DNA from: a virus | Direction: 5' to 3' (one strand) | Length of the DNA stretch: 32,563 nt | Virus record (IMG/VR): IMGVR_UViG_3300021961_010001 | Location: 1-32,563 of that record | Shown: in pieces, positions 7,437-30,872 of the stretch | How positions within the stretch are numbered: the first letter of the stretch is position 1 | Layout: the number at the start of each line of letters is the position of its first letter | Position numbers and translations under genes: made by a program | Notes under the pieces: model-generated | Databases searched by the model: none | Seen by the model: only the letters and a program-made list of their open reading frames with translations | What the model was told of the DNA's origin: nothing

Positions 7437-8354
7437 TCAATCTTCAGCTAACTTACTGAAATAGCTGAGTGTATCATCCTCATCCTCATCGGGTGAGGAT
7501 GTTTTCATTTGTGGGGCCCGAGCAGCCCGAGGAGCTGGAGCCGCTGCCACCGGCTCATCTTCCATACGGCTTTCTGAAATCTTATCAGCAGTCACACCTG
7601 TCGGACTACCCTTTAGCACCATGTCCAACTTCTTCTTCAAGTCCTCGTAGCTCTTGAAGTTCTTGGCATCAGTGAATTCAGTCAAAGAATGTTGCTGATT
7701 CCAGATGGCTTCAATGGCTGAATCATCCTCAGCAATTGCCGATACAGCATCAAATTCCGACTTGTCATAGTTGCGATATCCTTCAACATTACGAATCTTC
7801 AACTTGAAGCTGGCACCCTTCCAGAAATCGAATGGATTGGTTGGATCCTCATCCTCGAACTGAGGTTGCATCACATCCTTAATCTTATCGAAAATCTTCT
7901 TGCCATACTTGTACAAGAACACCTTACCCTCGTTCTGAGGATTGGCTGAATCCTTGATGACAAGAATGTTGGAAATGTAAGTGAGCTTACGCTTCTGCTT
8001 CCGAGCAATTTCCTTGTTGCTCTCAATACCAGAGTTCCACAACTCATTGTTCAGCTCAGAAACAGGATCTGGAAGATTCAATGTGGTCAAGCTGTTCTCA
8101 ATGTACCAGCGACCTGAAGGACCTTGGAACCCATGATTCCAGATACGTACCCAAGGAAGCTCTTCTCCCTTTGGCGGCGGCAAGAACCGAATCACGGCAT
8201 ATCCATTGCCTGCCTTATCAACTGCCGGGCTCCAGAACCGGTCATCATCACGGCGTTCACCTGAAGCGGGCTTTGCAATCTTTTCCACCTCTTTCATGAG
8301 GTTGTCGAAGTTGCCACGACTCTTGCGTAAATCTGATAAACTACTGAATGTCAT
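7437..8354 (-). CDS. 32: Single-stranded DNA-binding protein gp32
   Basis: The product is 305 residues (T4 gp32 has 301). The basic N-terminus (MTFSSLSDLRKSRGNFDNL) corresponds to the cooperativity domain. The OB-fold core includes KAGNGYAVIRFLPPP, WVRIWNHGFQGPSGRWYIEN and RKLTYISNILVIKD. After KVFLYKYGKKIFDKI comes the second half of the core, then an Ala/Pro linker and an acidic tail (SSPDEDEDDTLSYF) that in T4 recruits gp59 and other replication proteins. The whole protein contains no cysteine. The T4 zinc-binding Cys residues fall where this protein has IENSLTTLNLPDPVSELNNE, so the structural zinc is apparently absent. The Shine-Dalgarno is AAGGAGA. Its leader has a direct repeat (8373-8394) that could bind gp32 in autoregulation. 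Confidence 0.93.
   Translation of the reverse strand: MTFSSLSDLRKSRGNFDNLMKEVEKIAKPASGERRDDDRFWSPAVDKAGNGYAVIRFLPPPKGEELPWVRIWNHGFQGPSGRWYIENSLTTLNLPDPVSELNNELWNSGIESNKEIARKQKRKLTYISNILVIKDSANPQNEGKVFLYKYGKKIFDKIKDVMQPQFEDEDPTNPFDFWKGASFKLKIRNVEGYRNYDKSEFDAVSAIAEDDSAIEAIWNQQHSLTEFTDAKNFKSYEDLKKKLDMVLKGSPTGVTADKISESRMEDEPVAAAPAPRAARAPQMKTSSPDEDEDDTLSYFSKLAED
7481..7505 (+). terminator. Intrinsic terminator of the tail operon, inside gp32
   Basis: The plus strand reads CATCCTCA, a five-base loop TCGGG, then TGAGGATG, followed by TTTT. The stem is a perfect 8 bp. It begins 45 bases past the tape-measure stop. The same bases encode the acidic PDEDEDD tail of gp32 on the other strand. Confidence 0.6.
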
Positions 8355-8418: not shown

Positions 8419-8595
8419 TTAGTACTCCTCATCAAACTCATAACGAATGTTGTCCCCATAATCATCTTCATCCTCATCTTCTAGCATATCATAGATTGCT
8501 TTCCGATGCTTACCAAACTTGTCCTTCTCAATCTTCTTGGGACGTTTGAAGTCACGATAATCTTCTTCATAATCCCAATCACGTTGTTTACTCAT
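8419..8595 (-). CDS. Small acidic conserved-type protein
   Basis: This is a 58-codon frame, too short for most automatic calls. It starts MSKQRDWDYEEDYRDFKRPK, continues with a basic middle (KKIEKDKFGKHRKAIYDML) and ends with a very acidic stretch (EDEDEDDYGDN, then YEFDEEY). It overlaps the end of gp59 by 8 bases and precedes gp32, so it lies inside the replication operon gp33-gp59-this gene-gp32. I do not recognise a named family. The bipolar charge suggests a small DNA- or protein-binding accessory factor. It shows coding character: no stop through 58 codons, a tight overlap and sensible composition. Confidence 0.65.
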   Translation of the reverse strand: MSKQRDWDYEEDYRDFKRPKKIEKDKFGKHRKAIYDMLEDEDEDDYGDNIRYEFDEEY

Positions 8596-9169
8596 AAAAT
8601 GCCTTTGTGGTAATCATTGCCAGTTTGTCCTTCTCCACTTTGATGAAAGGTGAATACTTGTGTATCAATCGAGAAATGGAATTCCAAACCGGGTCAAAGA
8701 CTAGTTGTTCATCCACCTCTGATGTAAATTTATATAATTTATTTAGAATTACAAGTGTTTCTAGCCGACATCTTTTACCACAATATGCCTTTAAAATCAC
8801 GGGATGTCCTTGAGAACAATCCCAGACATCTTCCAATTTCGTGACTTGTGACGCCAAATATTGCACATCTTGTGTGTAGTTATATGTGAGACTTTCTTGA
8901 ATACGTTTCCATTCCAAGAATACTTCTGGACCGGTGTTCTCAAAAATGCCCCACTCATTACCATTCAGGAAGTTGGCCACTAGATAATTGATGAATTCTT
9001 CTTCCTGATAATTGTATTGCTTCATCAACATTTCCAACTTCTTTTTGAAACTGGTTTTCACACCTGCCTTGGGCTTTCTGGGAGTGATGCCACTTCGGAT
9101 ATCATAATTATCAGTTGTGAAGTGCAATCGTAAGGCGGTGTAAATCTTGTAAGCGTCAGTTACATTCAT
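8588..9169 (-). CDS. 59: Helicase loader gp59
   Basis: The product is 193 residues (T4 gp59 has 217). It opens MNVTDAYKIYTALRLHFTTD, the characteristic N-terminal half of gp59. It then has YDIRSGITPRKPKAGVKTSF, where in T4 a basic face contacts fork DNA. A second helical domain follows, with WDCSQGHPVILKAYCGKRCR and LNKLYKFTSEVDEQLVFDPV. In T4, gp59 binds gp32-coated fork DNA, loads the gp41 helicase and holds back premature polymerase action. It overlaps gp33 by 4 bases upstream and the small acidic gene by 8 bases downstream. Being cotranscribed with gp32, its direct partner, fits this role. Confidence 0.9.
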   Translation of the reverse strand: MNVTDAYKIYTALRLHFTTDNYDIRSGITPRKPKAGVKTSFKKKLEMLMKQYNYQEEEFINYLVANFLNGNEWGIFENTGPEVFLEWKRIQESLTYNYTQDVQYLASQVTKLEDVWDCSQGHPVILKAYCGKRCRLETLVILNKLYKFTSEVDEQLVFDPVWNSISRLIHKYSPFIKVEKDKLAMITTKAFYE

Positions 9170-9435
9170 ACAGGAAGTTTAGGTGTTTTCTTCAACAAGT
9201 TCATTTCTTCTGCTTCAGCTTGTATCTTGGCTTTCAATGAATTGGTAATCATCCCAGCCACAGCCACGGGTTCTATTCCTTTATTCTCACAATACTCCAA
9301 TAAGGCTTCAAAACATCCAATTTTTCTTTGTATGGCTTGTTTCTCAATGTGTATGGAAAATTCCGTGGAGTTGTTGAATTCTCGGGTGATGAGATATTCC
9401 ACGGTTAATGTTTTGGATTCTTCTGTTTCAGTCAT
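9166..9435 (-). CDS. 33: Late transcription coactivator gp33
   Basis: The product is 89 residues (T4 gp33 has 112). The core is a helical stretch with FSIHIEKQAIQRKIGCFEAL, then ALLEYCENKGIEPVAVAGMI, ending LKAKIQAEAEEMNLLKK. This 'cleared early helix, CE-x-GIE, Leu-rich end' pattern is that of gp33 in marine T4-like phages. T4 gp33 binds the beta-flap of host RNA polymerase and links it to the gp45 sliding clamp for activated late transcription. The window contains perfect TATAAATA late promoters, which agrees. The gene overlaps SleB upstream and gp59 downstream by 4 bases each. A sigma70-like promoter about 100 bases upstream (9539-9567) may drive gp33-gp59-gp32. Confidence 0.8.
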   Translation of the reverse strand: MTETEESKTLTVEYLITREFNNSTEFSIHIEKQAIQRKIGCFEALLEYCENKGIEPVAVAGMITNSLKAKIQAEAEEMNLLKKTPKLPV

Positions 9436-9928: not shown

Positions 9929-11434
9929 TTAGAATCCAGAACAGTTATTACCTCCACACCCACATTGTCCTTCCTTGAATTGTTCATAACATTCATAAGG
10001 ATAATATTGACAGGATTGTGTACAAGCGTCCAAACGAACCACAACTGTGTCACCTTGACGGCTATAATAAGTATCAGGTTGTCCTGCATCCACTTCTGTT
10101 TCATTTTCTTCATATACACCAAAACGAATTACATATATTTCCAGTTGTTCTCCATCAGCATTAACTGCTTCCAAGAACATACGATATCCGCCTACAGCTA
10201 AATCTGCTGGTGGTGCCACTACAAGATTACCATCTTCATTCTTTGAAACGAATGGTAAACAATCTCGAACGTGAGTACCCCAAAAAATGTCATCAATACG
10301 GACAGAAACAGCAGGTGATGAAACAGTTAAAGGAATAATCAATTCAGTTCCACGCTTCACCTTGTGATATGATTCTGATGGTGACAGGAACAACTCTCTG
10401 TGTGCCAATGCTTGAGCTAACAAATTGGGTGTGGTTCCATAAATGTTTTCATTACGGAACAACATATCAGGAATACCAGATGAAATGAATTCACTTTGAA
10501 TATCAGCTGCTGACTTTGTTGGCTCATCTGCAATATACTGACAAACTAAGCCGCTGACAAGGGCTGCAGCATAAGATGTTCCAGAACCTTCGGTCAATCC
10601 ACCTGCAATATTGGCGATTTCCACATCAATACCTGGTGCCGTGATGTCAACATCTGGTCCCCAGTTGGATCCTGCACCGGCTGACCAAGAAATGACACGG
10701 TCAAAAGCATCGGAAGCAGCAACACCAATCACAGTATTTAAACCAACAGGTGAAAGCGTGTTGGCATCTGAAATGGTGTTACCTGCTGAAGCCACCACTA
10801 CTAACCCAGCATCTTTCAATTCTTGAATTTTCAAATCAAGTACTAAACTTTTCGCAACTGACCAGGAACAATTCACAACCTTAACAACAGATGGTGTGAG
10901 ATTATGGTCAGCAAGAACGGCATCAAAAGCAGTTAGTAGATTGCTGACAGGAATTTCCACGCCAGTTTCAATTTTCACAGCCTTCAATAAAGCATGTTTA
11001 GATGCACCAACATTGGCTCCTGCAATCAAACTTGCAATTGCAGTTCCATGTCCTATTTCATCTTGAGGATCTTCATTATATGAATATAGTTGAATTACAG
11101 ATGTTTCAGAAAATTCTGAGTGGGTTCCATCAATACCAGAATCCATGACGTACACGGTAACATTTTCACCAAAATTCTTTGGTGTATAGACATTACGCAT
11201 AGGTAACATCTTGCTATTCAACCGATTCAAGGCCCAAGCACCAAGAACAGGTGTAGTGGTTACATCTTCTTCAACATGAGTGACTTGTGAATATGCTGAA
11301 AAATCTGAGCTTTCAGCAGTGACATTTAATACTTTGATAGCATCCAATGTCTTGTTAACAACAATGCCAGCAGATGTTAAACTAGAAACTAGTTCAGAAA
11401 CATTGCCGGTATACACAATATTATACGTAGCCAT
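9929..11434 (-). CDS. Subtilisin-like serine protease (S8 family) with C-terminal extension
   Basis: The product is 501 residues. Residues 1-60 look like an inhibitor I9-type propeptide. The catalytic domain shows all S8 motifs: VYVMDSGIDGTHSEF (Asp98), IGHGTAIASLIAGA (His129), ASAGN (oxyanion Asn219) and GSGTSYAAALVSGL (Ser287). Residues about 365-465 look like a beta-sandwich. The last 30 residues are Cys-rich (six Cys, ending CGCGGNNCSGF). No N-terminal signal peptide is visible. Phage prohead proteases normally belong to other folds (T4 gp21 is S78-like), so the role is open: processing of virion proteins, host surface or host regulators, or release. A late-type promoter CATAAATA lies about 40 bases upstream. 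The likely downstream partner is the SleB lysin, which would suit joint envelope degradation. Confidence 0.85.
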   Translation of the reverse strand: MATYNIVYTGNVSELVSSLTSAGIVVNKTLDAIKVLNVTAESSDFSAYSQVTHVEEDVTTTPVLGAWALNRLNSKMLPMRNVYTPKNFGENVTVYVMDSGIDGTHSEFSETSVIQLYSYNEDPQDEIGHGTAIASLIAGANVGASKHALLKAVKIETGVEIPVSNLLTAFDAVLADHNLTPSVVKVVNCSWSVAKSLVLDLKIQELKDAGLVVVASAGNTISDANTLSPVGLNTVIGVAASDAFDRVISWSAGAGSNWGPDVDITAPGIDVEIANIAGGLTEGSGTSYAAALVSGLVCQYIADEPTKSAADIQSEFISSGIPDMLFRNENIYGTTPNLLAQALAHRELFLSPSESYHKVKRGTELIIPLTVSSPAVSVRIDDIFWGTHVRDCLPFVSKNEDGNLVVAPPADLAVGGYRMFLEAVNADGEQLEIYVIRFGVYEENETEVDAGQPDTYYSRQGDTVVVRLDACTQSCQYYPYECYEQFKEGQCGCGGNNCSGF

Positions 11435-11449
11435 AAAATCTCCAAGTGG

Positions 11450-12046
11450 TTAAACTGACCGAGGTGTTTGTGTATTATTTATGTTATTTTTTACGGCCCA
11501 ATCACGCTCCATACAGAAAAAACATCCCCCACACGCTGCTACACGATTTTCTTGTTTTTTAGGGGCTCCACAAGAGAAAGTCAGAGAAAACAAGTCTAAA
11601 ATGTTTTCTTTGTGATATATTTTATATATTTCAGGCTTCAGTAAATCTATGAAGGGTCGTTTATGAAAATCATTGAATACTGAACCTCGTACTGGTGGTG
11701 TATCATAAGGAATATACACCGATGGGGTGAATTCATTTTCTGGGACTTTATTGCACCCCGTGTACACATAGCCAGGAAAATCCAAAAGAATGGATTCTAC
11801 TGCTGGGCGAATGAAAGTTTTACCCCAGATGTTTAAATGAATTTTTTTATTGAAATGGTTTTCCAACCAGGCATGACAATCATACATGAACGGACTTTGA
11901 AAATCCAATCTATGTTTCATGAAATGTAATGTCAATGATGTTTCCGGATGTTGTTTCAGTAACAAATAGGATAGTAATGTACTATCTGCACCGCCAGAAA
12001 ACAAAACATTAATGTGTGTACAGTCTTGTGATATCTCAATATTCAT
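11450..12046 (-). CDS. QueC-like PP-loop ATPase
   Basis: Translation is taken from ATG at 12046, giving 198 residues. A longer frame from 12094 would run through the tmRNA pseudoknot and is rejected. The N-terminus has the PP-loop SGGADST (residues 17-23). The C-terminal CGAPKKQENRVAACGGCFFC matches the four-cysteine zinc knuckle of QueC, although the gap between the first and second Cys is longer than in E. coli QueC. QueC makes preQ0 (7-cyano-7-deazaguanine) from carboxydeazaguanine, and phages use this pathway to modify DNA. No QueD, QueE or FolE homologue is present in the window, so the role could instead be another adenylating or thiolating reaction. It immediately follows the tmRNA and precedes the protease. 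The product shows no export signal. Confidence 0.7.
   Translation of the reverse strand: MNIEISQDCTHINVLFSGGADSTLLSYLLLKQHPETSLTLHFMKHRLDFQSPFMYDCHAWLENHFNKKIHLNIWGKTFIRPAVESILLDFPGYVYTGCNKVPENEFTPSVYIPYDTPPVRGSVFNDFHKRPFIDLLKPEIYKIYHKENILDLFSLTFSCGAPKKQENRVAACGGCFFCMERDWAVKNNINNTQTPRSV
11476..11483 (-). promoter_or_regulatory. Late-type promoter variant CATAAATA for the subtilisin gene
   Basis: The minus strand reads CATAAATA, one mismatch from TATAAATA. It ends 42 bases upstream of the protease start at 11434, inside the end of the PP-loop gene. AT-rich DNA yields such octamers by chance, so confidence is limited. Confidence 0.35.
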
Positions 12047-12053
12047 AAAATTT

Positions 12054-12300
12054 AGTGGGGTTTTCTGTTCCCAGGGAAACCCCGAACCCGGCATGCTGCC
12101 TAATTAGGCAGCTAATGCAAGAGGTGCGTTATATGCGCCTGTTAAATTTTTTGCTCTGCTTACGGCAGTCGCCTTTCGGGTAGCTCTCGCATCTAATCCT
12201 TAACCTGTCGAAACCAAGCACCCCCAAAACACTGCAATACATCAAGTGGAGGTGAGGGGAGTCGAACCCCTGTCCAAGCTATGTTTCAATTTGAGCTGTT
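12054..12300 (-). ncRNA. ssrA: Permuted (two-piece) tmRNA, ssrA
   Basis: Read on the minus strand, the acceptor half comes first. It has a T-arm (AGGGG-TTCGACT-CCCCT) and the 3' strand CACCTCC plus discriminator A at 12247, with no encoded CCA. Then, after 21 bases, the 5' half starts GGGGGTGCTTGGTTTCGACA at 12225. GGGGGTG and CACCTCC form a 7-bp acceptor stem with one G-U pair. The coding half carries the tag frame (12154-12104), whose stop lies in a perfect 18-base hairpin (12112-12095). A classical H-type pseudoknot follows at 12091-12057: CCGGG with CCTGG, GGGGTTT with AAACCCC. tmRNA with SmpB rescues stalled ribosomes and tags nascent chains for proteolysis. This piece order is that of two-piece tmRNAs. 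Exact mature ends are estimates. No SmpB gene lies in the window. Confidence 0.93.
12104..12154 (-). other. tmRNA proteolysis tag reading frame (AKNLTGAYNAPLALAA)
   Basis: The resume codon GCA at 12154 opens a 16-codon frame ending TAA at 12104. It encodes AKNLTGAYNAPLALAA. The initial Ala and the C-terminal LALAA are the hallmarks of ssrA tags, and the LAA end is recognised by ClpXP. The tag sequence is not the E. coli ANDENYALAA, so it is either host-matched or phage-specific. It is not an independent gene. Confidence 0.9.
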
Positions 12301-12307
12301 CTACTAC

Positions 12308-12338
12308 CATCCTACACTACTATTTATCATCATCCTAC
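12308..12338 (-). promoter_or_regulatory. Late-type promoter variant GATAAATA with flanking repeats, upstream of the tmRNA
   Basis: GATAAATA (12328-12321) lies just upstream of the acceptor piece of the tmRNA and would place a start near 12315. The 8-mer GTAGGATG occurs on each side (12338-12331 and 12315-12308), 23 bases apart. This could be a promoter with an operator, or processing sites for the two-piece RNA. The stretch from 12300 to 12343 has no gene. Confidence 0.35.
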
Positions 12339-12342
12339 GATA

Positions 12343-13431
12343 CTACTTCTCAAGAAAATGTTTCAATTCTTGTTGAACAAATTTCTTGTTCATGAAAGCT
12401 GATGTATGTTGCCAACACACTGAATTATCTAGGTATTTAATTAAATTTTCTTTAGTATGATTTCCTTGCTGCACTAAAAATATGTTCTCCATCCATAATA
12501 TATTGTGATTTTTATATATGGTTGGTGTAGTTATATCTTCATGTTCATAATTTTTTATGGTCCATTCCACTATACCCCCATATTTTGTGATACCTTCTTC
12601 TTGGTAGAACCAAAAATGATTTAAATCCACCATGTCGTAGAGAAATTTAACATACGGATTTGTAAATAAATCCTTATGGTCATTTTCCCAGGTATTAGGA
12701 ATATACTTTTCCTCCACCACGTGCCAACTTTCAGACCTTGGGCTATCTGCGGGCTTCCATAAAGGCCATCCTCGTTTTGAAGAGGAATATTCAAGTGATG
12801 TGTTGTTATGCATACTGAAACAGAGATAATCTATACCATGATATTTACAAAAATTTTGAACTAGTAAAACATTTTTAAAGTGTTCTATCAACCGTTCATC
12901 TAAAGAAAAAACATGGTCAACATAATCGTCATAATATTCTATGGCTGGTGCTAGTACATGGTCATATGAATATCCTCCAGACAAAATATAATAACCATGT
13001 TCACCAATATAATTTTTATCTGTTATAAAATCATTGACATGAGCAACATAATCTAAATCAGTAGAAGGATTTAAATTCTCATTGTTTATATTTTTAAGAA
13101 AATAATTTTTTTCTCTTTGTTTTTCAGGAGAAATGAAAACAGAATTTCTTGTCCAAGAAGACCATTGAATTATAACTTTTATATCAGAAGGAGAAACTCC
13201 ATCTTTTAACAATTTACCAACACCATATAGTACAGACTGTGCAATTAGATTGTTGTCATTGGTGGGGCATCCATAGCTTATAACTTTGTGTTCTGGATAT
13301 AATTCTTGAATATAATTAGGCCACTTTTTCATGTTATGAGGATCTTGCATAAAATCATATTCAGTGCCATCTATCCCAATTCTTTTACCCTGTCTAGTAA
13401 AAGAACACCCGGTCGTTATAATATATTTCAT
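12343..13431 (-). CDS. SGNH-fold hydrolase-like protein, long form
   Basis: The product is 362 residues. The N-terminus reads MKYIITTGCSFTRQG, with GCSFT in the position of the GDS nucleophile block of SGNH/GDSL hydrolases. It is followed by WPNYIQELYPEHKVISYGCP and a strand with IIQWSSWTRN that resembles block III. Related GCSFT proteins are common in T4-like phages of marine bacteria and have no fixed function. They are candidates for acyl or acetyl ester hydrolysis on surface glycans. It overlaps the next SGNH gene by 4 bases, so the two are likely coexpressed and may have arisen by duplication and divergence. I see no clear catalytic D-x-x-H at the C-terminus, so hydrolase activity is uncertain. 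Confidence 0.6.
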   Translation of the reverse strand: MKYIITTGCSFTRQGKRIGIDGTEYDFMQDPHNMKKWPNYIQELYPEHKVISYGCPTNDNNLIAQSVLYGVGKLLKDGVSPSDIKVIIQWSSWTRNSVFISPEKQREKNYFLKNINNENLNPSTDLDYVAHVNDFITDKNYIGEHGYYILSGGYSYDHVLAPAIEYYDDYVDHVFSLDERLIEHFKNVLLVQNFCKYHGIDYLCFSMHNNTSLEYSSSKRGWPLWKPADSPRSESWHVVEEKYIPNTWENDHKDLFTNPYVKFLYDMVDLNHFWFYQEEGITKYGGIVEWTIKNYEHEDITTPTIYKNHNILWMENIFLVQQGNHTKENLIKYLDNSVCWQHTSAFMNKKFVQQELKHFLEK

Positions 13432-14063
13432 TTCATGTCCAATAGTTTATTGTAAAAACGTTCATAAACATATTTATGGGCATTTTTATTGAAATGCCTA
13501 TCATTACCAGCCCAGTGATTAGGATTGCTAGTTATCATTCTCCAATCATCTGGATACAACACATAATGTTCTGCATATGATTTGAAAATATATTTTTCTA
13601 ATCTTGGGTCATCATCTACTGACCATAAAAGAAATCTAACATTTTTTTGTTTTAAAAAATCTATGATGAACTTAAACTTCAAAATGTCATGAGTGATGTA
13701 TGTGTCTAAATTATGGATATATTGAAGAAAAAAGTTGTAATCTTCTAACGTATTACTATCCATATTTTTATGGTCAGATTTATTAGAGATATCGTTTAAA
13801 AATATTGTACTATTTGTGAATGGATTTAATAACCTAGAAAAAAATCCAGTTTCTAGAATAACAACGTCATCGTTTCCTATTTCATGGTAATGAGAGATGA
13901 ACCGATTTATTATCTCACCGTTACACATTCCTGCACTTGCATAATTTTTCAAAGTACAATTCAATTTATTCGATAATAATGCTGGCCAACTATCTTCTAT
14001 TGAAACTGGTAAATCATTGGTATAGTTAGTTGAAAAAGAATCACCAAAAACAAACAAATTCAT
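13428..14063 (-). CDS. SGNH-fold hydrolase-like protein, short form
   Basis: The product is 211 residues. It starts MNLFVFGDSFSTNYTNDLPV, a clear GDS nucleophile block (Ser9 in GDSFS). It then has WPALLSNKLNCTLKNYASAG with the conserved Gly of block II, then a block III-like VVILETGFFSRL. Near the end is WAGNDRHFNKNAHKY, where the D-x-H of the catalytic dyad can be placed (DRH). The active-site set looks complete, unlike the neighbouring long form. Probable substrates are ester-linked decorations on host glycan or lipid, but this is inference. The gene overlaps the exonuclease gene upstream by 4 bases and the long SGNH gene downstream by 4 bases. A GATAAATA octamer lies 49 bases upstream. Confidence 0.7.
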   Translation of the reverse strand: MNLFVFGDSFSTNYTNDLPVSIEDSWPALLSNKLNCTLKNYASAGMCNGEIINRFISHYHEIGNDDVVILETGFFSRLLNPFTNSTIFLNDISNKSDHKNMDSNTLEDYNFFLQYIHNLDTYITHDILKFKFIIDFLKQKNVRFLLWSVDDDPRLEKYIFKSYAEHYVLYPDDWRMITSNPNHWAGNDRHFNKNAHKYVYERFYNKLLDMK

Positions 14064-14722
14064 TTGTTAAATGCCTCATATAAGTCTCTATAATACAGTA
14101 AGCTATTCACATATTTATCCCGCTTGCCTTGAAAGACTTGCATGAATCCATCTTCCACCACAATGGCAATCACCAACCGATTGATGGGAATCTTGGTTCG
14201 TTCTTCAAACATGATGGCATAGGCGGCAGCTTGCATATAGTAATGTTGAATATGCTCTTCATCCTTTTCTCGCCTTGCCGTTTTAAAGTCAATGACACTT
14301 AACTTGCCATCAAACTCGGCAATACAATCCACTCGTCCAGCCAAGCGAAGATGATGTGACCATAACGTGGATTCTTGCGCACGAATGTTATCAATTCTAT
14401 CCAACACAGGTTGTGCCACTTTGAACATCTCATAATCCATCAAAGAGAAATCACCACCAGTCAGTTCATTCTGTAGATATTTTTCCGCTAGAGTATGAAA
14501 TCTGGTGCCACGAAATGCCGCTTTTCTGGACACACGATTGGCTTCTTCTTCACCCACACGCTCACGCCATTCCAAGATGCCTTTCTTGGTATGGGCAGAA
14601 AGCACTGTGGTCACGGAGGGATAGAGTTTACCATCTGGTGTATGATATACTCTATTCCCATCCGTGCCAGTTGTGGCTTGTAATTCTTCTATTATTATTG
14701 GATTTCTGAGAAATGTTTTCAT
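14060..14722 (-). CDS. PD-(D/E)XK exonuclease (Cas4/RecB/MGME1-like)
   Basis: The product is 220 residues. It contains a full RecB-type nuclease set: RGTRFHTLAEKYL (His76), LAGRVDCIAEFDGKLSVIDF (Asp132 and Asp145) with FKTAR (Lys147), and HYYMQAAAYAIM (Gln164, Tyr168). The GRVD...IDFK pattern is that of the Cas4/MGME1 group. Such phage enzymes degrade or trim DNA ends during recombination-dependent replication or recycle host DNA. The ATG at 14722 has no Shine-Dalgarno. The -10 hexamer of a strong promoter ends only 6 bases before it, so the message would be almost leaderless. No closer in-frame start exists before the catalytic core. It overlaps the short SGNH gene by 4 bases. Confidence 0.9.
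   Translation of the reverse strand: MKTFLRNPIIIEELQATTGTDGNRVYHTPDGKLYPSVTTVLSAHTKKGILEWRERVGEEEANRVSRKAAFRGTRFHTLAEKYLQNELTGGDFSLMDYEMFKVAQPVLDRIDNIRAQESTLWSHHLRLAGRVDCIAEFDGKLSVIDFKTARREKDEEHIQHYYMQAAAYAIMFEERTKIPINRLVIAIVVEDGFMQVFQGKRDKYVNSLLYYRDLYEAFNK
14112..14119 (-). promoter_or_regulatory. Late-type promoter variant GATAAATA for the SGNH pair
   Basis: GATAAATA lies 49 bases upstream of the start at 14063, inside the exonuclease gene. It is one mismatch from the late octamer, and chance occurrence in AT-rich DNA cannot be ruled out. Confidence 0.3.
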
Positions 14723-14728
14723 ACTATA

Positions 14729-14757
14729 ATACTAACATCACTTTCCACATTTGTCAA
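14729..14757 (-). promoter_or_regulatory. Sigma70-type promoter TTGACA-N17-TAGTAT for the exonuclease gene
   Basis: TTGACA is at 14757-14752, the spacer is exactly 17 bases, and TAGTAT is at 14734-14729 with a TG just upstream (TGTTAG). The upstream PhoH stop codon TGA is embedded in the -35 hexamer. A start 7 bases after the -10 falls on the A of the ATG at 14722, predicting a leaderless transcript. Confidence 0.65.
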
Positions 14758-15512
14758 GAGGCGATTAGCATTTCCTCACATGCAAGTCTGGCGATGATGT
14801 ATTCTTTCACCAATGGTCCTCGAACAATGTCTTCCACATCAAATTCCACATGCCGGAATGATGGCATATGGTTGGCAATGGCCATGAACTTCTTTAACCC
14901 AGACATATCATGACGCTTTTGTAAATCGGTTTGTCGGAAGTCACCACAGAAAATGATTTTTGTGTTTTGGCCTACGCGGGTCATGATGCTGTTTAATTCC
15001 ATGTCATTCATGTTTTGTGCCTCATCCACAATCACAATACAATCATCTAAGGTTAAACCTCGAACATATGAAGTGACCATGAAATGAATTAAATTTTGTT
15101 CCTTCAACTTATTATAGGCACGTTCTCCAAAACGTGGAAATAAATCGGCACAAATTTCTTGATATGGTTGTGAATATACTTCCACTTTTTCCTTCTCGTT
15201 ACCTGGAAGGAATCCAATGTCTCGGGATGGTACTGCTGACCGAACAATCACAACTTTTTTATATCCTGAATTTTCTAAAATCTCCTTGAAAGCGCTATGC
15301 ATGGCAATATATGTTTTACCTGTGCCTGCCACACCATGACACAGAATGGCTTTATGTCCTTTTCGATAATAATTGAAAAAATTCTCCTGATTTTCTGTGA
15401 GGGCCCAAATTTCTTTTAAATCTGCGAGTTTAACTTTGTGCTTGGATTCTTGTTCCTCTTGGACAATGTACGTTTGTGAAGTAACCAATTTCAGGCGCTT
15501 TTTGCGTGACAT
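14754..15512 (-). CDS. phoH: PhoH-like ATPase
   Basis: The product is 252 residues, a usual length for phage PhoH. Walker A is GVAGTGKTY (60-68) and Walker B is IVIVDEAQN (DEAQ at 163-166). The family blocks VRSAVPSRDIGFLPG, TSYVRGLT and IFCGDFRQTD are present. PhoH is a P-loop ATPase with helicase-type motifs. It is widespread in marine phages and named for phosphate-starvation induction in E. coli, but its function in phages is not settled. A terminator lies just upstream of the gene (15537-15571), so expression may depend on readthrough. Its TGA stop lies inside the -35 element of the next promoter. The start codon follows the terminator tail by 24 bases. Confidence 0.93.
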   Translation of the reverse strand: MSRKKRLKLVTSQTYIVQEEQESKHKVKLADLKEIWALTENQENFFNYYRKGHKAILCHGVAGTGKTYIAMHSAFKEILENSGYKKVVIVRSAVPSRDIGFLPGNEKEKVEVYSQPYQEICADLFPRFGERAYNKLKEQNLIHFMVTSYVRGLTLDDCIVIVDEAQNMNDMELNSIMTRVGQNTKIIFCGDFRQTDLQKRHDMSGLKKFMAIANHMPSFRHVEFDVEDIVRGPLVKEYIIARLACEEMLIAS

Positions 15513-17366: not shown

Positions 17367-17395
17367 AATCTAACATCCAACTATTGGTTTGTCAA
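17367..17395 (-). promoter_or_regulatory. Sigma70-type promoter TTGACA-N17-TAGATT for DNA ligase
   Basis: TTGACA at 17395-17390 is followed by a 17-base spacer and TAGATT at 17372-17367, again preceded by TGT. The TGA stop of the upstream radical SAM gene lies inside the -35. Predicted start is near 17360, giving a leader of about 20 bases with AGGAGA before the ligase ATG. Confidence 0.7.
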
Positions 17396-18495
17396 GACCC
17401 AGGAATTAAATGGTGGAAATTGTGACCTACCACTGCACCTAAATTGGTTTTTTTCCCATGAATTTTCATAAGTTCTTGAAGGAAGTCGGTATGTTTTGGA
17501 TGATGAGGATTGAAAACGGAAATGTTTTTCACTTCGCTAGGAGAATAAACACCGGTCTCCCAATGAACATGCTGGCGATAATGAATATGTAAGCTTATTT
17601 TAGACTCAGCAAAAATTTCATTAAACACATTGTAGAATTGTTCCATTTCTGTATAGTTATACTCACTAACAACCATAGACACAATAAAATGTTTTATGCT
17701 ATCCTGAGTGCTTAAAAATTTAATGTTGGCTAACAACTTGTGCCAATCACCATTCAACCGAGTAACATTTTCATATGTGTTCTGCGTCCCAGCATCCACA
17801 CTAATTTCTATTCTTTTAATGAAAGGTCTAGCACCTAAGCTATGCCACATCTTCTCGGTTAACAAATTTCCATTGGTGATAATTTGTATTTCTTCTAATT
17901 TTGGATATTTTTTTGGATCAAAATCTATCAAGTAATTTCTATATAACTTGGAGTAGAAGGGATCACCACTACCTGTTATCATCAATCTTTTTACATTAGA
18001 GGCAAATTTTTCTTCAATTTGCTCTAGTAAAAACACTTCTCTTTTAAACCGGTCGGAATCAATGTGTGCATTGGGAACTTGTTCCTTTCTACAAGAAGGA
18101 CATCGTAAGTTGCAACTACGGTCGAATCCAAAAAGAATATATTCTGGCAACCCTTGATAATTCTCAACATCTTCAGCAGAAGTTATATTAAAAGTTTTTA
18201 AAAATTCTTCCTTCTCTATGAATTCTTCTGGTACTTCATCGGTGTTTATAAGTTTAGAAAGAGCTGGACATATGGTATGATTACAATGCCGATAAGAACC
18301 ATCTAACATGGATTTTCTTATATCTAACACCTTTTCACCACGCCAGTTATTTAATAAATCTTCATCTTTGGCCATGGTTTCCAATCTAATATCTGTAGGG
18401 GCCCAACTTGGACAACAAATCCATTGACTTGTATATTGCACATCCAAATAAGTAAAAGGATTTCTACAGACATATTTTTGTAGTTTTTCTGACAT
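17392..18495 (-). CDS. Radical SAM enzyme with N-terminal SPASM-like cysteine cluster
   Basis: Translation is taken from the ATG at 18495, overlapping the E1-alpha stop by one base (TAATG), giving 367 residues. The radical SAM motif is CNLRCPSC (C128, C132, C135). An N-terminal region carries C10, C27-C28, C71 and C76 with IRKSMLDGSYRHCNHTIC. This resembles the Cys pattern of a SPASM-type auxiliary iron-sulfur domain, here placed N-terminal. The barrel continues with TGSGDPFYSKL (GGE-like) and QIITNGNLLT. Radical SAM/SPASM enzymes modify peptides or sugars by radical chemistry. It is the last gene of the glycan cassette before the ligase promoter. A sugar-modifying role is inferred from neighbours. 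Confidence 0.85.
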   Translation of the reverse strand: MSEKLQKYVCRNPFTYLDVQYTSQWICCPSWAPTDIRLETMAKDEDLLNNWRGEKVLDIRKSMLDGSYRHCNHTICPALSKLINTDEVPEEFIEKEEFLKTFNITSAEDVENYQGLPEYILFGFDRSCNLRCPSCRKEQVPNAHIDSDRFKREVFLLEQIEEKFASNVKRLMITGSGDPFYSKLYRNYLIDFDPKKYPKLEEIQIITNGNLLTEKMWHSLGARPFIKRIEISVDAGTQNTYENVTRLNGDWHKLLANIKFLSTQDSIKHFIVSMVVSEYNYTEMEQFYNVFNEIFAESKISLHIHYRQHVHWETGVYSPSEVKNISVFNPHHPKHTDFLQELMKIHGKKTNLGAVVGHNFHHLIPGS

Positions 18496-19124
18496 TAGAA
18501 CGCCACCCATTTTCCAGATCCATAATGTGGATACTTAGATTTATATGTATAATGTATTACATCAGCTGGAACTTCTCTCTTAACACCCCAAGTAGCTTCG
18601 GTAGGAGTATAAGTAGAAATTCCATTATCTTCCACAACAAAGTATAAAGGCAAATCAAAATTTCTGGCATACTTATGAACTTCATAAAATATTCCAGTCT
18701 CAAAACACATATCTCCAACAAAACACCATACCTTATCTGAACCATTACTCATCTTGATAGATTTAGCTACACCTAAAGCTAACGGCAAAGTTGCTGTCAC
18801 AATTGCGGATGCATAAAATTTTTCATCTATGTTACATAAAGTGATGGATTTACCTTTAAGAATTTCCTGTTCTATCCATTGGGAATCAATTCCTTTAAGA
18901 AATGCGTGATAATGAGAACGCCAGGTAGAAAACACCCAATCTGAGGGTTTAATTCTTTTGAAAATTTCAATGAGTTGGTTCTCATTGCCGTTGGAAAGAT
19001 GCACAGGTCCACGAATTTTTCCGGACTCCCAATGCTGTACAATATCTTCTTCAAACTGGATTAAATCCTGTTCGCTAAAGGCAACATCTCTTACGATAGG
19101 GTGAAAATCAAGGTTTCTAATCAT
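18495..19124 (-). CDS. Thiamine-diphosphate enzyme E1 alpha-like subunit
   Basis: The product is 209 residues. It shows the TPP-binding signature GD-x25ish-N: VGDMCFETGIFYEVHKYA and VVEDNGIST (Asp138, Asn167). Upstream, FSTWRSHYHAFLKG resembles the active-site His loop of E1 alpha subunits. At this length it covers only the TPP-binding core (full E1 alpha is about 330-400 residues). The complementary PYR domain is encoded at 20847-21380, so the two genes can together form an alpha2-beta2 enzyme. Such split transketolase/E1-type enzymes occur in surface-polysaccharide gene clusters of bacteria, which fits the neighbours here. The exact substrate (2-oxo acid or ketose transfer) is unknown. The gene overlaps the radical SAM gene by one base and adjoins the RmlC gene. 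Confidence 0.8.
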   Translation of the reverse strand: MIRNLDFHPIVRDVAFSEQDLIQFEEDIVQHWESGKIRGPVHLSNGNENQLIEIFKRIKPSDWVFSTWRSHYHAFLKGIDSQWIEQEILKGKSITLCNIDEKFYASAIVTATLPLALGVAKSIKMSNGSDKVWCFVGDMCFETGIFYEVHKYARNFDLPLYFVVEDNGISTYTPTEATWGVKREVPADVIHYTYKSKYPHYGSGKWVAF

Positions 19125-19673
19125 TTATGAATCTCTTTTTTGTAATGTAGGAGAAGATGTAGGCCATTCCATGTTAAATCTTGAATCATTCCATTTTACC
19201 ACATGTTGTTGACGTTCATCAACATATTTACCTTCATAGAATAAATTATAATGAAAAATACAATCTGTCAAGGCGTAATGGCCGTTAGCAAAACCAGGGG
19301 GAACAAGAACTTGGTCTCTGGTTTTTTCTGTGATTATATAAGATTCCCATTTTCCGTAGGTGAGAGACTCCTCACGCATATCTAGTACAACAAGATATAT
19401 ATCTCCAACTAACGCTTGAACTAGTTTCCATGTTTTTGTATCATAATGCAACCCTCGTAAAACACCTTGGTAAGACTTGGAAAATCTAGTATGCGCAGAA
19501 CAATTTTTTGGTAATAAATTGTTAACCGGATGTTCATAATTGTGATATGTGGTGAATATTTCTCCGCGATATTCACGATACACAGAAGGACTGTAAACAG
19601 GAACTTCGGTGTCAAAGGTGTTAAGATGACTTACAGAAAAATGATTCCATCTATTATTTTTATAATTTGTCAT
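19125..19673 (-). CDS. RmlC-type dTDP-sugar 3,5-epimerase
   Basis: The start chosen is the ATG at 19673, 1 base after the upstream stop and preceded by GAGGCAG. It gives 182 residues. The family hallmarks are all present: GVLRGLHYD (His76), KLVQALVGDIYLVVLDMRE, VPPGFANGHYALTD, FHYN (Tyr142) and VKWNDSRFNMEWP (Asp163). These correspond to the catalytic His, Tyr and Asp of RmlC. The enzyme inverts carbons 3 and 5 of a dTDP-4-keto-sugar. No RmlA, RmlB or RmlD in strict form is present, so the keto-sugar substrate may come from the host or from a neighbouring epimerase or dehydratase. It sits between a glycosyltransferase-like gene and E1 alpha. Confidence 0.85.
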   Translation of the reverse strand: MTNYKNNRWNHFSVSHLNTFDTEVPVYSPSVYREYRGEIFTTYHNYEHPVNNLLPKNCSAHTRFSKSYQGVLRGLHYDTKTWKLVQALVGDIYLVVLDMREESLTYGKWESYIITEKTRDQVLVPPGFANGHYALTDCIFHYNLFYEGKYVDERQQHVVKWNDSRFNMEWPTSSPTLQKRDS

Positions 19674-19674
19674 T

Positions 19675-20850
19675 TTAAGCTGCCTCATATATTCGTAAAA
19701 TTTGTTCAGAAAAAAGTTCAACATACATACGTCTAAAATTGTTTCCAGTGAATATGTTATACTCTCGTTTAAATTCAGCCAACTCTTTTTTATCTAGCTC
19801 AAAAACTTTTTTCGTAAATTTTTCAATTTCACAAAATCTTGCAACATCATCTTCAATAGAATCATAGGCATGGTCCCAAAAATCATATCTATATTGTAAT
19901 CCTAGTTTTTCTAATGCAGAGATTGTGTTAGGTTTAGACAACAATATAAAAGGATGTCCTACAAATGTAGGTCTTAATACTTTTTCAGTAATATTATTCC
20001 AGGTAGATTGTGTGTCAATCATACCACCTTGATTTTGAACATGGAAAAATTTTGTCTCTGTTGCTATTTCAAAGTATGTATCCAAGTAGGTAACAAAATT
20101 AAAACTGTTACCGCGTTGACGATAATGAGAATATCCTGAGTAATCATAAAAATGAGGCAAAATTTTCAACACAGGAAAACTGTCAAATTCTTGTCTAAAA
20201 CACTGCGGAACCAACTCATTCATTAGTCCAGAATCATAATCTGGAGCAGTTGAGGCCCATAACAAATCTTTTAAGTAATCATTTTCATGAAGAAAATTTA
20301 AAAATTTAATTTTATGATATCTAGAATGTCCTACATGGAACATTCCTTTGTATTTTCTTAAAAAATTTGTTTGTTCTCTTTCAATTCTTCTAAATGCAGA
20401 AAATGCATCATAATTAGCTGAAGTATTCTCTACATAGTGAGCAAATAGTACTTCAAACCAAAAATGATTATCTCTTTTAGATATCAAATTTTTAGTTATG
20501 AAAAATATAGGTACATCACTTATAGTTTCAAGTTCATCTAAAAAAACTTCAGGAATATCTTGATTGTCATAAGTAGAAAAATCTATAAAAATGTTTTTAC
20601 ACACACGCCCACGCAACTCATTTTTTAGTGCGGCTACTTGATGTTCATGCTGATGGAAACTTTCCATTGAAATGAACAAACTAGTATCTTTATCTAAAAA
20701 ATCATAATGTACTTGTTCAAATTTAAGAAATTTTCTAAAAGAAATGGGAAGTTCCTGAAAGATGTCTCGGTCAGGATTCAATGTCCATTTATGCTTAGCT
20801 TGATTTTTGCTTGAATAGGTGTAGAAATGAACAAAACAAAACTTTTTCAT
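19675..20850 (-). CDS. Glycosyltransferase-like protein (GT10-type C-terminal motif)
   Basis: The product is 391 residues. The N-terminal half is not recognised. The C-terminal part has NNITEKVLRPTFVGHPFILL and LGLQYRYDFWDHAYDSIEDD. This matches the 'SEK/TEK...P...PF...LGF' block seen in alpha-1,3-fucosyltransferase-type (GT10) enzymes. The other GT-like gene at 26586-27947 shares the same block (FISEKICNPIIVLQPFIVVA and IDESYDD), indicating paralogy. No signal peptide or membrane anchor is evident, so it would act in the cytoplasm with nucleotide-sugar donors. It overlaps E1 beta by 4 bases and is separated from RmlC by a single base. The donor sugar cannot be inferred. Confidence 0.6.
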   Translation of the reverse strand: MKKFCFVHFYTYSSKNQAKHKWTLNPDRDIFQELPISFRKFLKFEQVHYDFLDKDTSLFISMESFHQHEHQVAALKNELRGRVCKNIFIDFSTYDNQDIPEVFLDELETISDVPIFFITKNLISKRDNHFWFEVLFAHYVENTSANYDAFSAFRRIEREQTNFLRKYKGMFHVGHSRYHKIKFLNFLHENDYLKDLLWASTAPDYDSGLMNELVPQCFRQEFDSFPVLKILPHFYDYSGYSHYRQRGNSFNFVTYLDTYFEIATETKFFHVQNQGGMIDTQSTWNNITEKVLRPTFVGHPFILLSKPNTISALEKLGLQYRYDFWDHAYDSIEDDVARFCEIEKFTKKVFELDKKELAEFKREYNIFTGNNFRRMYVELFSEQILRIYEAA

Positions 20851-21380
20851 ACATAATACAATTCTGGATATTCTACAAGAACGTGGATGCCTCCCTGTGA
20901 AGCTTCCTTATAGCTCTTTGAAATATCTTCAGGAGTTTTTAAATTATGAAACGTGATGTTTTTACACATACTAGAAAATTCTTGGAAGTAATTTCCTTTG
21001 TGTTGATGGCCTGGATCCAATGGTTTATCTGACCCTTTTCCTAAACGAATTAATAAATCAATTGATTTACTAGTCATAAGAGTGTACTTATCTACATGAT
21101 TTATCAGTTGATTTGCCGCTAAGATGATAAAATCCCATCTAGGATAAAAAGTTATGACCTTTTTACCTGTCATCGCCATGCCTAGTGACATCCCCATTTG
21201 AGTTTCTTCCATGACAGGAACTTCCACCATGGTTTCTTTAGATACTTTAGATAATGTAGTGCTCATAGGATTACCTGCATATACAATTTGCTGGCCTATG
21301 AAGATGAAATTTTTTTCTGCTAAATCACCCATAGCATCCGTCAAAGCATCTTTATATGGTGTATATTCTATGTTACTCAT
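20847..21380 (-). CDS. Thiamine-diphosphate enzyme E1 beta-like subunit (PYR domain)
   Basis: The product is 177 residues. It resembles the transketolase/E1 beta pyrimidine domain: VPVMEETQMGMSLGMAMTGK places Glu58 at the position of the cofactor-activating glutamate. The following TFYPRWDFIILAANQLINHV matches the 'PV.E...DF...A.DQ..N' block. It lacks the C-terminal domain of full E1 beta (about 330 residues), so it is a minimal PYR unit that must pair with the PP subunit at 18495-19124. Coupled overlaps (4 bases with the GT downstream and the SGNH gene upstream) suggest equal expression. Function as part of a sugar or 2-oxo acid pathway is inference. Confidence 0.8.
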   Translation of the reverse strand: MSNIEYTPYKDALTDAMGDLAEKNFIFIGQQIVYAGNPMSTTLSKVSKETMVEVPVMEETQMGMSLGMAMTGKKVITFYPRWDFIILAANQLINHVDKYTLMTSKSIDLLIRLGKGSDKPLDPGHQHKGNYFQEFSSMCKNITFHNLKTPEDISKSYKEASQGGIHVLVEYPELYYV

Positions 21381-22315
21381 TGACGAGGCCTATGGATATG
21401 GGATGAATCTATTTTTTGAATTAATGCATCTGCTACAACTTGATGCGCCATCAATGAAGGATGATGGTCCCCTGGTGTTACTTTAAAATGTCTTGTATCT
21501 GTGTCTATTTTCATCTCAGGAACTTCCATCAATGTATTATAGGTAGGATAATCTTTATTCAAATATTTAAATTGTACTAGTCTTTCTTTTAACCAAGGAT
21601 CTTCCTCAACATATTTTAACCCATCATATGGCCAAACAGTTACTAAAGCTCTAACACCATGCATTTCAAAATTCTGTAAAAATTTTTTCACACGTGCAGT
21701 TGTTTGCCTATTATGTAACTCTTGCCATTGTTCATAGGTCATTTCACGGTCCAATAACCATTCTAGGAATGCATTAAATCCTTCTTCCTCACTCTGAGAT
21801 CCATTTCTTGCATAATGAACATTGAAGTTGTAAGTTTTACCCTTCCATTCAAATTTAAATCTTGTTCTTTCTAATTGAGTGAATTGATACACAATATAGG
21901 CAAAATCATCATAATCATACCACGGATCCGAAACGCTGAAAATACCGTCATCATTCATGTGCCTATTTTTGTTGTGTAGATAAGGTTTTCTGGATGGATC
22001 AAATGCCCGTTCCCAGAAATCTAGAATGGACTCATCAGATCCTCCATTATATGGATGTACCGCTTCAAACGTTTTGAAATGACTAGCCACCAAACGAGGC
22101 ATGCGTACAGATTCCATAAAAGCTATATGAGAACTGTTTACTAAAACTCTTTCAAAATGATTGGGCTGGGGTTCTCGTATGGATGGCAAATTGCTGTAAT
22201 AATACAATCCTTGCCCCCAAGTAAAGGAACATCCCGCAAACACTATCCCGCGTGTTACCTTAGGATTTTGTGTTACAAACTTAGTGTATTCCTTTCCATC
22301 TATTGCAGTCGTCAT
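21377..22315 (-). CDS. SGNH-fold protein of the glycan cassette
   Basis: The product is 312 residues. The first block is IVFAGCSFTWGQGLY with Ser in GCSFT. The C-terminal HFKVTPGDHHPSLMAHQVVA gives the D-x-x-H catalytic pair (GDHHPS), so the active site looks complete. Related GCSFTWGQG proteins are frequent in marine T4-like phages. A role as sugar O-acetyl or acyl esterase is plausible beside the transferases and epimerases. It overlaps the E1 beta gene by 4 bases and the epimerase gene by 4 bases. It is the third SGNH-like protein in this window. The others at 12343 and 13428 are outside this operon. Confidence 0.65.
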   Translation of the reverse strand: MTTAIDGKEYTKFVTQNPKVTRGIVFAGCSFTWGQGLYYYSNLPSIREPQPNHFERVLVNSSHIAFMESVRMPRLVASHFKTFEAVHPYNGGSDESILDFWERAFDPSRKPYLHNKNRHMNDDGIFSVSDPWYDYDDFAYIVYQFTQLERTRFKFEWKGKTYNFNVHYARNGSQSEEEGFNAFLEWLLDREMTYEQWQELHNRQTTARVKKFLQNFEMHGVRALVTVWPYDGLKYVEEDPWLKERLVQFKYLNKDYPTYNTLMEVPEMKIDTDTRHFKVTPGDHHPSLMAHQVVADALIQKIDSSHIHRPRQ

Positions 22316-23289
22316 TTCGGTCTAAATTCCCAAGCGTGTTCAGTGTACCAATCATATGTTTTCTTTAATCCTTCCTCTAATGATGTCTTGGCTTCCCATC
22401 CTAAAATATTTTTAATCTTGTTGGAATCAATTCTTCTAACTGGAATCATTGACGGCTTACCTGAAACATATTCCACAGGATTTTCATTTCCTACCAAGCG
22501 CTTCATGGTATGTAGCACTTCATTAACAGAATACACTTTATTGGAACCCACATTGAATACATCATAGGTATCTTGTTTTTGAATTATCATTTCAATGGCT
22601 TCAACAAAATCATCAATGTATACTAAATCTCGCAACTCAGAACCATCACCCCAAACAGGGATAGGATTTATTCCATCTGCAACTTTTCTGATGGTGGCAG
22701 GTGTGACATGACACTTGTTGAAATCAAATTTATCATGTGGTCCATATAAATTGGCTGGCCGAACCACAACAGTGGTCATGGGATTAGGAAGATACTTGGA
22801 ATACAATTCACATTGTACTTCAGCATATCGCTTCATCCATCCTACAGGAAAATATACTGGATATGGAGCATCGAATAGAAAATCAGTTTCTACTACTGGC
22901 TCATCACCCTTAGGAGGATATACAGTATTAGAGGACAAGAAAATGTATTTCTTTACCATATTTCTATATGAGGCATCAATCAAAAAATTGTTCATCGTCA
23001 CATTTGGCGTTACGTGCGCCAAAGGATCATTGACAGTATCCACTGCATTAGAAGTGGACGCTGCGGCATGAACAACAACATCTATATTTTCTGTGATTCT
23101 TAAGCAACTTTGATAGTCACTTAATTCTGCTTCCCAATAAAATACCCCATCATAAAACTTTCTAGGTTTGCTTTTGTGTAGAGGTACTCGGATGTTTTTA
23201 TATCCCTGTTCTACCAAATATCTGGTCAAGTTTTGTCCTACTAATCCACTTCCACCTGTAATCAATATTCTTGCATTCTTATCCATCAT
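22312..23289 (-). CDS. NAD(P)-dependent sugar epimerase/reductase, GDP-fucose synthase-like
   Basis: The product is 325 residues, an extended short-chain dehydrogenase. It has the Rossmann signature ITGGSGLVGQN, the serine block YIFLSSNTVYPP and the substrate block VVVRPANLYGPHDKFDFNKC. It also has the ending LGWEAKTSLEEGLKKTYDWY. The usual catalytic YxxxK is read here as VGWMK (Lys153, Val149 at the Tyr position), so the catalytic Tyr is missing from its canonical place. Overall similarity is closest to Fcl/WcaG-like enzymes. The product may be an epimerase that works without the redox Tyr, or the family may have moved the Tyr. It overlaps the SGNH gene by 4 bases and lies 24 bases after the oxygenase stop. 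Substrate unknown. Confidence 0.8.
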   Translation of the reverse strand: MMDKNARILITGGSGLVGQNLTRYLVEQGYKNIRVPLHKSKPRKFYDGVFYWEAELSDYQSCLRITENIDVVVHAAASTSNAVDTVNDPLAHVTPNVTMNNFLIDASYRNMVKKYIFLSSNTVYPPKGDEPVVETDFLFDAPYPVYFPVGWMKRYAEVQCELYSKYLPNPMTTVVVRPANLYGPHDKFDFNKCHVTPATIRKVADGINPIPVWGDGSELRDLVYIDDFVEAIEMIIQKQDTYDVFNVGSNKVYSVNEVLHTMKRLVGNENPVEYVSGKPSMIPVRRIDSNKIKNILGWEAKTSLEEGLKKTYDWYTEHAWEFRPK

Positions 23290-23313
23290 AATAAATCACC
23301 CTAAAAATGTATG

Positions 23314-24048
23314 TTAATGTGAATCTTCCACTGAACCTGGTTGTCCTTCTTGTCTTACAAAGTTTAAATATGACCATCTCTTGAATCCGTTCTTGACTGG
23401 CAATACTTCATGCCATGCATCATGACGGCTGAAATCTAACACCACAAAGTTGCCACGAACCGGGATAATTTTATCGGATACAGGATTTTGATCCACATCT
23501 GTTCCACATAAAAATTCTCCTCCCCCATCTTGCCAAGTTTCAGCAGGTGTCATGTATATGATTATAGCCATGAATTTTCCTAATTGTCCATCTCTATGGC
23601 GAGAAATGAAGCATCCATTATCATCATATAAGGCATAACAATCATTATGACGAACCTTTTCAAGTGGAATATATGGGTATGCCTTCTCCACAAATTTCAA
23701 AGTTAACCCTCGGAAATATTCATGCTTAATGCGACCTATTTCATCTCGTTCGTATAGTAAACGATACCATTTTTGGTCAAAGGTCATTCCGTTTTCAGCA
23801 CAATACTTGTCTCGTGCAGGTACATCTGCTAAAGGAATGATAGAAGGCCATTGTTCCTGATGTTTATGAAACTCAATACCATTTGGTCTTGGGTCTCTTA
23901 AAGGATAAAAACAATCCCATTGGTCAATTGGATATTCATAATTCATAATGATGTCTGAATACCTATTGAATTGATCCTGGTCAGATACTAGTTCTTCTAA
24001 TTTGCCAACATAAAAGCCGTTTTTTAATAATGTCTCTTGAATAGTCAT
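23314..24048 (-). CDS. 2OG-Fe(II) oxygenase
   Basis: The product is 244 residues. The iron-binding facial triad is HRD (His151, Asp153) in FISRHRDGQLG and His213 in HDAWHEVLPVK. Arg224 in FKRWSYLNF is positioned to bind 2-oxoglutarate. Such enzymes hydroxylate small molecules, sugars or proteins with iron and 2-oxoglutarate. They are common in cyanophages and other marine phages but their substrates are mostly unknown. A perfect late promoter lies 26 bases upstream (24074-24081), so this gene and those after it may be expressed late. It overlaps the epimerase upstream by one base. It is placed between two related sugar epimerases, which suggests oxidation of a sugar or its carrier. Confidence 0.85.
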   Translation of the reverse strand: MTIQETLLKNGFYVGKLEELVSDQDQFNRYSDIIMNYEYPIDQWDCFYPLRDPRPNGIEFHKHQEQWPSIIPLADVPARDKYCAENGMTFDQKWYRLLYERDEIGRIKHEYFRGLTLKFVEKAYPYIPLEKVRHNDCYALYDDNGCFISRHRDGQLGKFMAIIIYMTPAETWQDGGGEFLCGTDVDQNPVSDKIIPVRGNFVVLDFSRHDAWHEVLPVKNGFKRWSYLNFVRQEGQPGSVEDSH

Positions 24049-25040: not shown

Positions 25041-25042
25041 AA

Positions 25043-30858: not shown

Positions 30859-30872
30859 GACAAAACCTCAAA

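Follow-up and report, generated by a model that had tools for sequence, protein, structure and literature searches.

A lineage of circularly permuted phage tmRNA genes with its own tags and a conserved late promoter motif

RESULTS

A complete permuted tmRNA gene in a T4-like phage

The virus record IMGVR_UViG_3300021961_010001 of IMG/VR (positions 1 to 32,563; this whole stretch of 32,563 nucleotides [nt] is referred to below as the window) carries on its minus strand, at about positions 12315 to 12057, a complete, circularly permuted gene for transfer-messenger RNA (tmRNA), which frees stalled ribosomes and adds a tag to the incomplete proteins on them. We consider it likely that this gene is functional, is maintained by the phage, and performs ordinary trans-translation late in infection. 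An initial annotation, made from the sequence alone, had proposed a phage-encoded, two-piece permuted tmRNA on a T4-like phage, and this is borne out by the covariance-model searches and by ARAGORN. The sequence matches RF04321 (tmRNA_permuted) over positions 1 to 213 of the 213-position model with 109.3 bits (E value of 1e-20; cutoff of 47), far above chance; RF01850 (beta_tmRNA) is the top model of the tmRNA clan, with 98.8 bits (E value of 4e-29; cutoff of 84); and ARAGORN returns a permuted tmRNA with the tag GAYNAPLALAA. Eighteen viral records, the window included, constitute one lineage of this tmRNA, and the RF01850 scores of the relatives range from 84.2 to 98.9 bits. Because the best-scoring lineage model is the betaproteobacterial RF01850, an alphaproteobacterial or cyanobacterial affiliation, for which the annotation had proposed the models RF01849 and RF01851, is not supported. 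The tag is not of the ANDE type of betaproteobacteria (GAYNAPLALAA versus ANDERFALAA and similar sequences).

The window encodes gp53, gp4, gp2, a baseplate hub protein, gp32, gp33, gp59, PhoH, an exonuclease, and a ligase, and we assign it to a T4-like phage because of its gp53/gp4/gp2/gp32/gp33/gp59/PhoH gene set. Among the isolate matches listed, the best for its single-stranded DNA-binding protein (SSB) are cyanophages, at about 57% identity.

As the annotation had it, the acceptor half lies upstream of the coding half: in order on the minus strand, the late promoter motif is followed by the acceptor piece (T-arm, CACCTCC-A), a 21-nt spacer, and the coding piece (Table 1). The T-arm, AGGGG-TTCGACT-CCCCT, lies at 12255-12271, the acceptor 3' strand CACCTCC plus A lies at 12247-12254, and the coding half opens with GGGGGTGCTTGGTTTCGACA at 12225; in the alignment of relatives, conservation of the acceptor piece begins at GTAGGATGGTAG. 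The halves are joined by helix 2 and by an acceptor stem of 7 base pairs (bp) that includes the wobble pair G3-U70, which is the alanine identity pair and is G-U in all 16 aligned sequences. The 18-base stop hairpin and the H-type pseudoknot noticed at the outset are likewise present. The predicted cleavage of a precursor into two RNAs would fit the variable spacer between the pieces.

Table 1. Parts of the tmRNA gene and genes of the surrounding locus in the window
Feature	Position	Strand	Evidence or remark
PhoH	14754-15512	-	PHROGs; upstream neighbor
PD-(D/E)XK exonuclease	14060-14722	-	PHROGs, synteny; left border of tmRNA locus
T4-type late promoter motif GATAAATA (consensus NATAAATA)	12321..12328	-	About 6 nt before conserved RNA start
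Acceptor piece, about 69 nt plus CCA to be added (P2 5' strand, T-arm, CACCTCC, discriminator A)	12247..12315	-	RF04321/RF01850
Spacer, predicted to be excised	12226..12246	-	Variable in sequence and length; least conserved block of 16-relative alignment
Coding piece, about 169 nt (acceptor 5' strand GGGGGTG, D-loop GGTTTCGACAGG, P2 3' strand, PK1 region, tag, stop hairpin, terminal pseudoknot)	12057..12225	-	
Tag frame GAYNAPLALAA-stop (resume codon GGC; GGC to TAA)	12104..12139	-	ARAGORN, comparative resume context, pN/pS of 0.22
Hairpin around tag stop codon, GCTGCCTAATTAGGCAGC	12095..12112	-	Paired changes in relatives
Terminal H-type pseudoknot, CCGGG/CCTGG and GGGGTTT/AAACCCC	12057..12091	-	Sequence
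QueC-like ATP-pyrophosphatase, directly after tmRNA	11450..12046	-	PHROGs/Pfam; likely start at 12046, longer ORF overlaps pseudoknot
gp33 late-transcription coactivator	9166-9435	-	PHROGs; downstream border
gp59 helicase loader	8588-9169	-	PHROGs; downstream border
gp32 SSB	7437-8354	-	PHROGs; downstream border

The fold was examined by aligning 16 relatives and applying RNAalifold, which yields a consensus of 44 pairs, 11 of them changed on both sides with pairing retained. These compensated pairs fall in the T-stem, acceptor stem, helix 2, and terminal pseudoknot (e.g., viral locus L006 in the acceptor stem and T-stem and L111 in helix 2). The stop hairpin also changes in pairs (GCTGCGTAATCGCAGC in L008; GCTGCTTAATTAAGTAGC in L026, L086, and L092), and the second stem of the L111 pseudoknot, compared by eye, has a wholly different sequence (GGTAGTTTGG/CCAAACTACC) with pairing kept over 10 bp.

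The tag peptide

That the tmRNA carries a tag of its own is supported, its sequence being GAYNAPLALAA. The annotation had read 16 residues from GCA to TAA, and of this reading the LALAA ending stands, whereas the first five codons do not. The 16-codon frame is open throughout in the window; in L016, L037, and L115, the upstream GCA lies 16 nt, not 15, from the resume codon, and the frame runs into TGA. The 16-residue tag is too long because its first five codons lose frame in these relatives, and the tag proper consists of the final 11 codons. A 10-residue tag beginning at GCA (AYNAPLALAA) was also rejected, and the start was set at GGC, because the UAA context is conserved and the GAC or GGC codons of the relatives align there. 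The resume codon of the relatives, GGC or GAC, is five bases past the conserved UAA (positions -5 to -3), a context that matches the known preference for AUAA or AUAG upstream of the resume codon (PMC4236655). The start of such a tag is thus best set comparatively: the annotation and ARAGORN disagree, and the relatives favor ARAGORN.

The identical tag occurs in seven viral loci, and related viral tags read GTFNSPLALAA, GTYNAPLALAA, GTNNMPLALAA, DNNYMSFATSYALAA, DNSYMSYANYSYALAA, and GNQYGSYMSSGYALAA. Within the G..N.PLALAA group, the ratio of nonsynonymous to synonymous polymorphism (pN/pS) of the tag is 0.22, which, in a small sample of four distinct coding sequences, is in the right direction and suggests purifying selection on the peptide. 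Tags appear to have been exchanged among phages, because L115 combines a tag of the DNNYMSFATSYALAA type (DNNYMS type) with a body like that of the GTFNSPLALAA type (L026 and L086), as if swapped by recombination.

The tag lacks the AND[N/E] start seen in nearly all sampled alpha- and betaproteobacterial tags, and a degenerate pattern for [A]YNAPLALAA had no match in the genomes of 84,980 species, a collection outside of which the host may lie. Together with the apparent exchange in L115, these features could indicate that the phage tag alters the fate of tagged proteins (sparing phage products or dodging a host adaptor) beyond the rescue that it adds. We regard such retargeting as unlikely, given that LALAA is a standard ClpX-type degron and that the residues preceding the tag terminus vary among bacteria as well.

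We found no SmpB gene on 26 viral records, most of them fragments, in a search that gave a positive signal in 10 of the control genomes, so host SmpB would have to serve. The lack of SmpB on these phage records would also suit a decoy, an RNA that ties up host SmpB, alanyl-tRNA synthetase, or stalled ribosomes and in which the tag is incidental; we judge this quite improbable, since a decoy would need no tag frame, resume context, stop codon, or LALAA, yet all are kept, and the changes in them are mostly synonymous.

Tags of the form G[E/K/T]QVE[L/M/Y]AMAA, with a GGC resume codon in a short permuted tmRNA, occur in many other viral contigs and apparently mark another phage-only lineage (L011, L025, L027, L028, L030, L039, L046, L048, L067, L069, L082, L089, L102, L104, L109, L118, and L120).

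A conserved late promoter motif and no encoded CCA

The sequence ATAAATA is unchanged at the same site in 18 of 18 aligned family records, despite differing sequence farther upstream, and is present in all 15 nonredundant family tmRNAs versus 18 of 91 other viral tmRNAs. For T4-like cyanophages, the consensus NATAAATA has been described as the late promoter (PMC2984593). Its fixed position makes it probable that the tmRNA is transcribed from a promoter active late in infection. Several other phage tmRNAs have near-perfect sigma-70-type promoters instead of the late motif.

Some observations count against a functional, late-expressed gene. ATAAATA is not in excess across the window (11 occurrences found versus 12.3 expected), and the case for the promoter rests on positional conservation because of this; weak sigma-70-like matches, at chance level, also occur upstream of the tmRNA; and the tmRNA of the window's nearest relative, L056 (on one contig with L228), breaks off within the tag and is joined to the next, QueC-like gene, with the pseudoknot gone, which may reflect either real decay or an assembly error.

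CCA is encoded in none of the family members, the window having CTT in its place after discriminator A, whereas many other viral tmRNAs encode it (an approximate count, as the pattern can match an earlier site).

A tmRNA locus between exonuclease and gp33

The tmRNA is located between the exonuclease and gp33 genes, and order and strand are the same in viral contigs with other tags and in the Methylophilales phage Melnitz. The gp33, gp59, and gp32 genes of the window were assigned by phrog_254, phrog_269, and phrog_224. A census of 80 viral loci, picked by the exonuclease alone and blind to tmRNA, included 49 contigs spanning the exonuclease to a downstream gp33, gp59, or gp32 gene, and 30 of these 49 carry a permuted tmRNA in the interval (excluding the truncated copy of L228 and one recognized by eye in L231, a locus on the contig of L085). 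Intervals of less than 50 nt between the border genes hold no tmRNA, and cyanophage S-CREM1 has the same gene order with no tmRNA present. Of the two readings offered in the annotation, capture from the present host, if recent, is not the simplest reading, because 18 records share the lineage, with mostly the same gene order, and many other T4-like contigs carry permuted tmRNAs at this place. The other, that the phage takes over ribosome rescue with its own tag, is possible.

The QueC-like gene occurs at this spot in many, but not all, relatives. Between the exonuclease and the tmRNA (12343-14063) are two adjacent proteins that have no PHROGs or Pfam match and are found at that place in few relatives; their GCSFT and GDSFS motifs suggest SGNH-type hydrolases. 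Downstream of the tmRNA, a subtilase (Peptidase_S8) gene at 9929-11434 encodes a cysteine-rich C terminus. Positions 17392-31745 hold a long series of epimerase-like, radical-SAM, carbamoyltransferase, and thiamine-enzyme-like genes, some of them checked against families, apparently a phage-borne cluster for surface-sugar biosynthesis.

Relationship to phage and bacterial tmRNAs

Melnitz (MZ577096) is a T4-like phage of the Kyanoviridae with a permuted tmRNA (PMC9004378) in the same position, the order being PhoH, PD-(D/E)XK nuclease, tmRNA, gp33, gp59, and gp32. Its tmRNA differs in having the tag ANDNYVPVDYALAA and an encoded CCA, which the window lineage lacks, and it was published as alphaproteobacterial-like, beside a glutamine riboswitch and downstream of an early promoter (PMC9004378), in contrast to the beta model and late motif of the window lineage. 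By blastn, we found no cultured relatives apart from a 36-nt match in Synechococcus phage S-CBWM1 (L152), whose permuted tmRNA has a similar T-arm and acceptor but a different tag (ANKIVAFHRQAVSCA) and another coding half. This tmRNA is unannotated in MG450654 (locus at 22442-25477, with the tmRNA at 1444-1761 of the locus). The gene psbA was not found in the records of the family, which are mostly fragments and in this respect uninformative about the host.

Among bacteria, the T-arm and acceptor block GGACAGGGGTTCGA.TCCCCTCACCTCCA is nearly identical in betaproteobacterial RF01850 tmRNAs (L159 and L160), which differ in their tags (ANDERFALAA and ANDEHFAIAA), in a divergent coding half and 3' part, and in having no phage late promoter. 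The PK1 segment GGCGACTGCCGTAAGCAGAGCAA of the window is identical in an extra permuted tmRNA of Variovorax, Roseateles, and Caldimonas (L128, L134, L139, L141, and L149), and this tmRNA is the sister of the phage family with a support of 0.92 in a short-alignment tree (149 columns, with alphaproteobacterial sequences left out because the anchor pattern missed them) that is only suggestive. These tmRNAs differ in tags such as ANDSFYLKQA, in an encoded CCA, and in the acceptor CAGCTCC/GGGGCTG. Their tags end in KQA or KRA, not LAA, so that degradation may be changed or abolished, and all but one of the five genomes contain an additional match to a tmRNA model, in most cases a weaker one.

A bacterial tmRNA could have been acquired as a passenger, as at ssrA integration sites, without functional upkeep: ssrA is commonly used as an integration site, the T and acceptor arms are 97% identical over 30 nt to those of some betaproteobacterial tmRNAs, and the copy of the nearest relative is truncated. 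We find this very unlikely in view of the compensatory changes, the selection on the tag, the invariant late promoter motif, and the finding of permuted tmRNAs at the same locus in many phages; nor is there an integrase among the window genes examined.

DISCUSSION

Permuted phage tmRNAs, including that of Melnitz at the same genomic place, are already published: a survey of phage genomes up to January 2021 suggested 53 two-piece tmRNAs, 50 of them marine or aquatic (PMC9004378), and a 2025 database holds 79 phage tmRNA sequences (PMC11915505). The present findings add the lineage with its tags, its late promoter motif, and its absent CCA, as well as the generality of the exonuclease-gp33 locus. 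In the literature searched, we found no experiments on the function of phage tmRNA during infection.

For ordinary trans-translation by this phage tmRNA, we propose the following course. The late promoter would probably yield one precursor, from which host RNase P and 3'-processing enzymes would free an acceptor piece of about 70 nt and a coding piece of about 169 nt, which would remain joined by helix 2 and the 7 bp of the acceptor stem. The acceptor would receive CCA from the host CCA-adding enzyme and alanine, via G3-U70, from the host alanyl-tRNA synthetase, and host SmpB would deliver the tmRNA to ribosomes that have stalled on mRNA that is broken or lacks a stop codon. The ribosome would restart at GGC, append (A)GAYNAPLALAA, and terminate, and the LALAA end should route the tagged protein to proteases of the ClpXP type. 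The phage would probably benefit because ribosomes remain available late in infection, a time at which mRNA decay, the load of synthesis, and the loss of host transcription may raise the demand for rescue.

More tentatively, and with somewhat less than even confidence, we suggest that the interval between the exonuclease and gp33 is a standing site for ssrA in aquatic T4-like phages, and that one phage-only lineage moved its tmRNA to late phage transcription, lost the encoded CCA, and took nonhost tags exchanged among phages, giving a phage-controlled channel of rescue and proteolysis that would be separate from that of the host during virion production. The lineage offers a testable case, in that its late motif is conserved, its tag had no match in the bacterial genomes searched, and its site in T4-like genomes is fixed and common to many phages.
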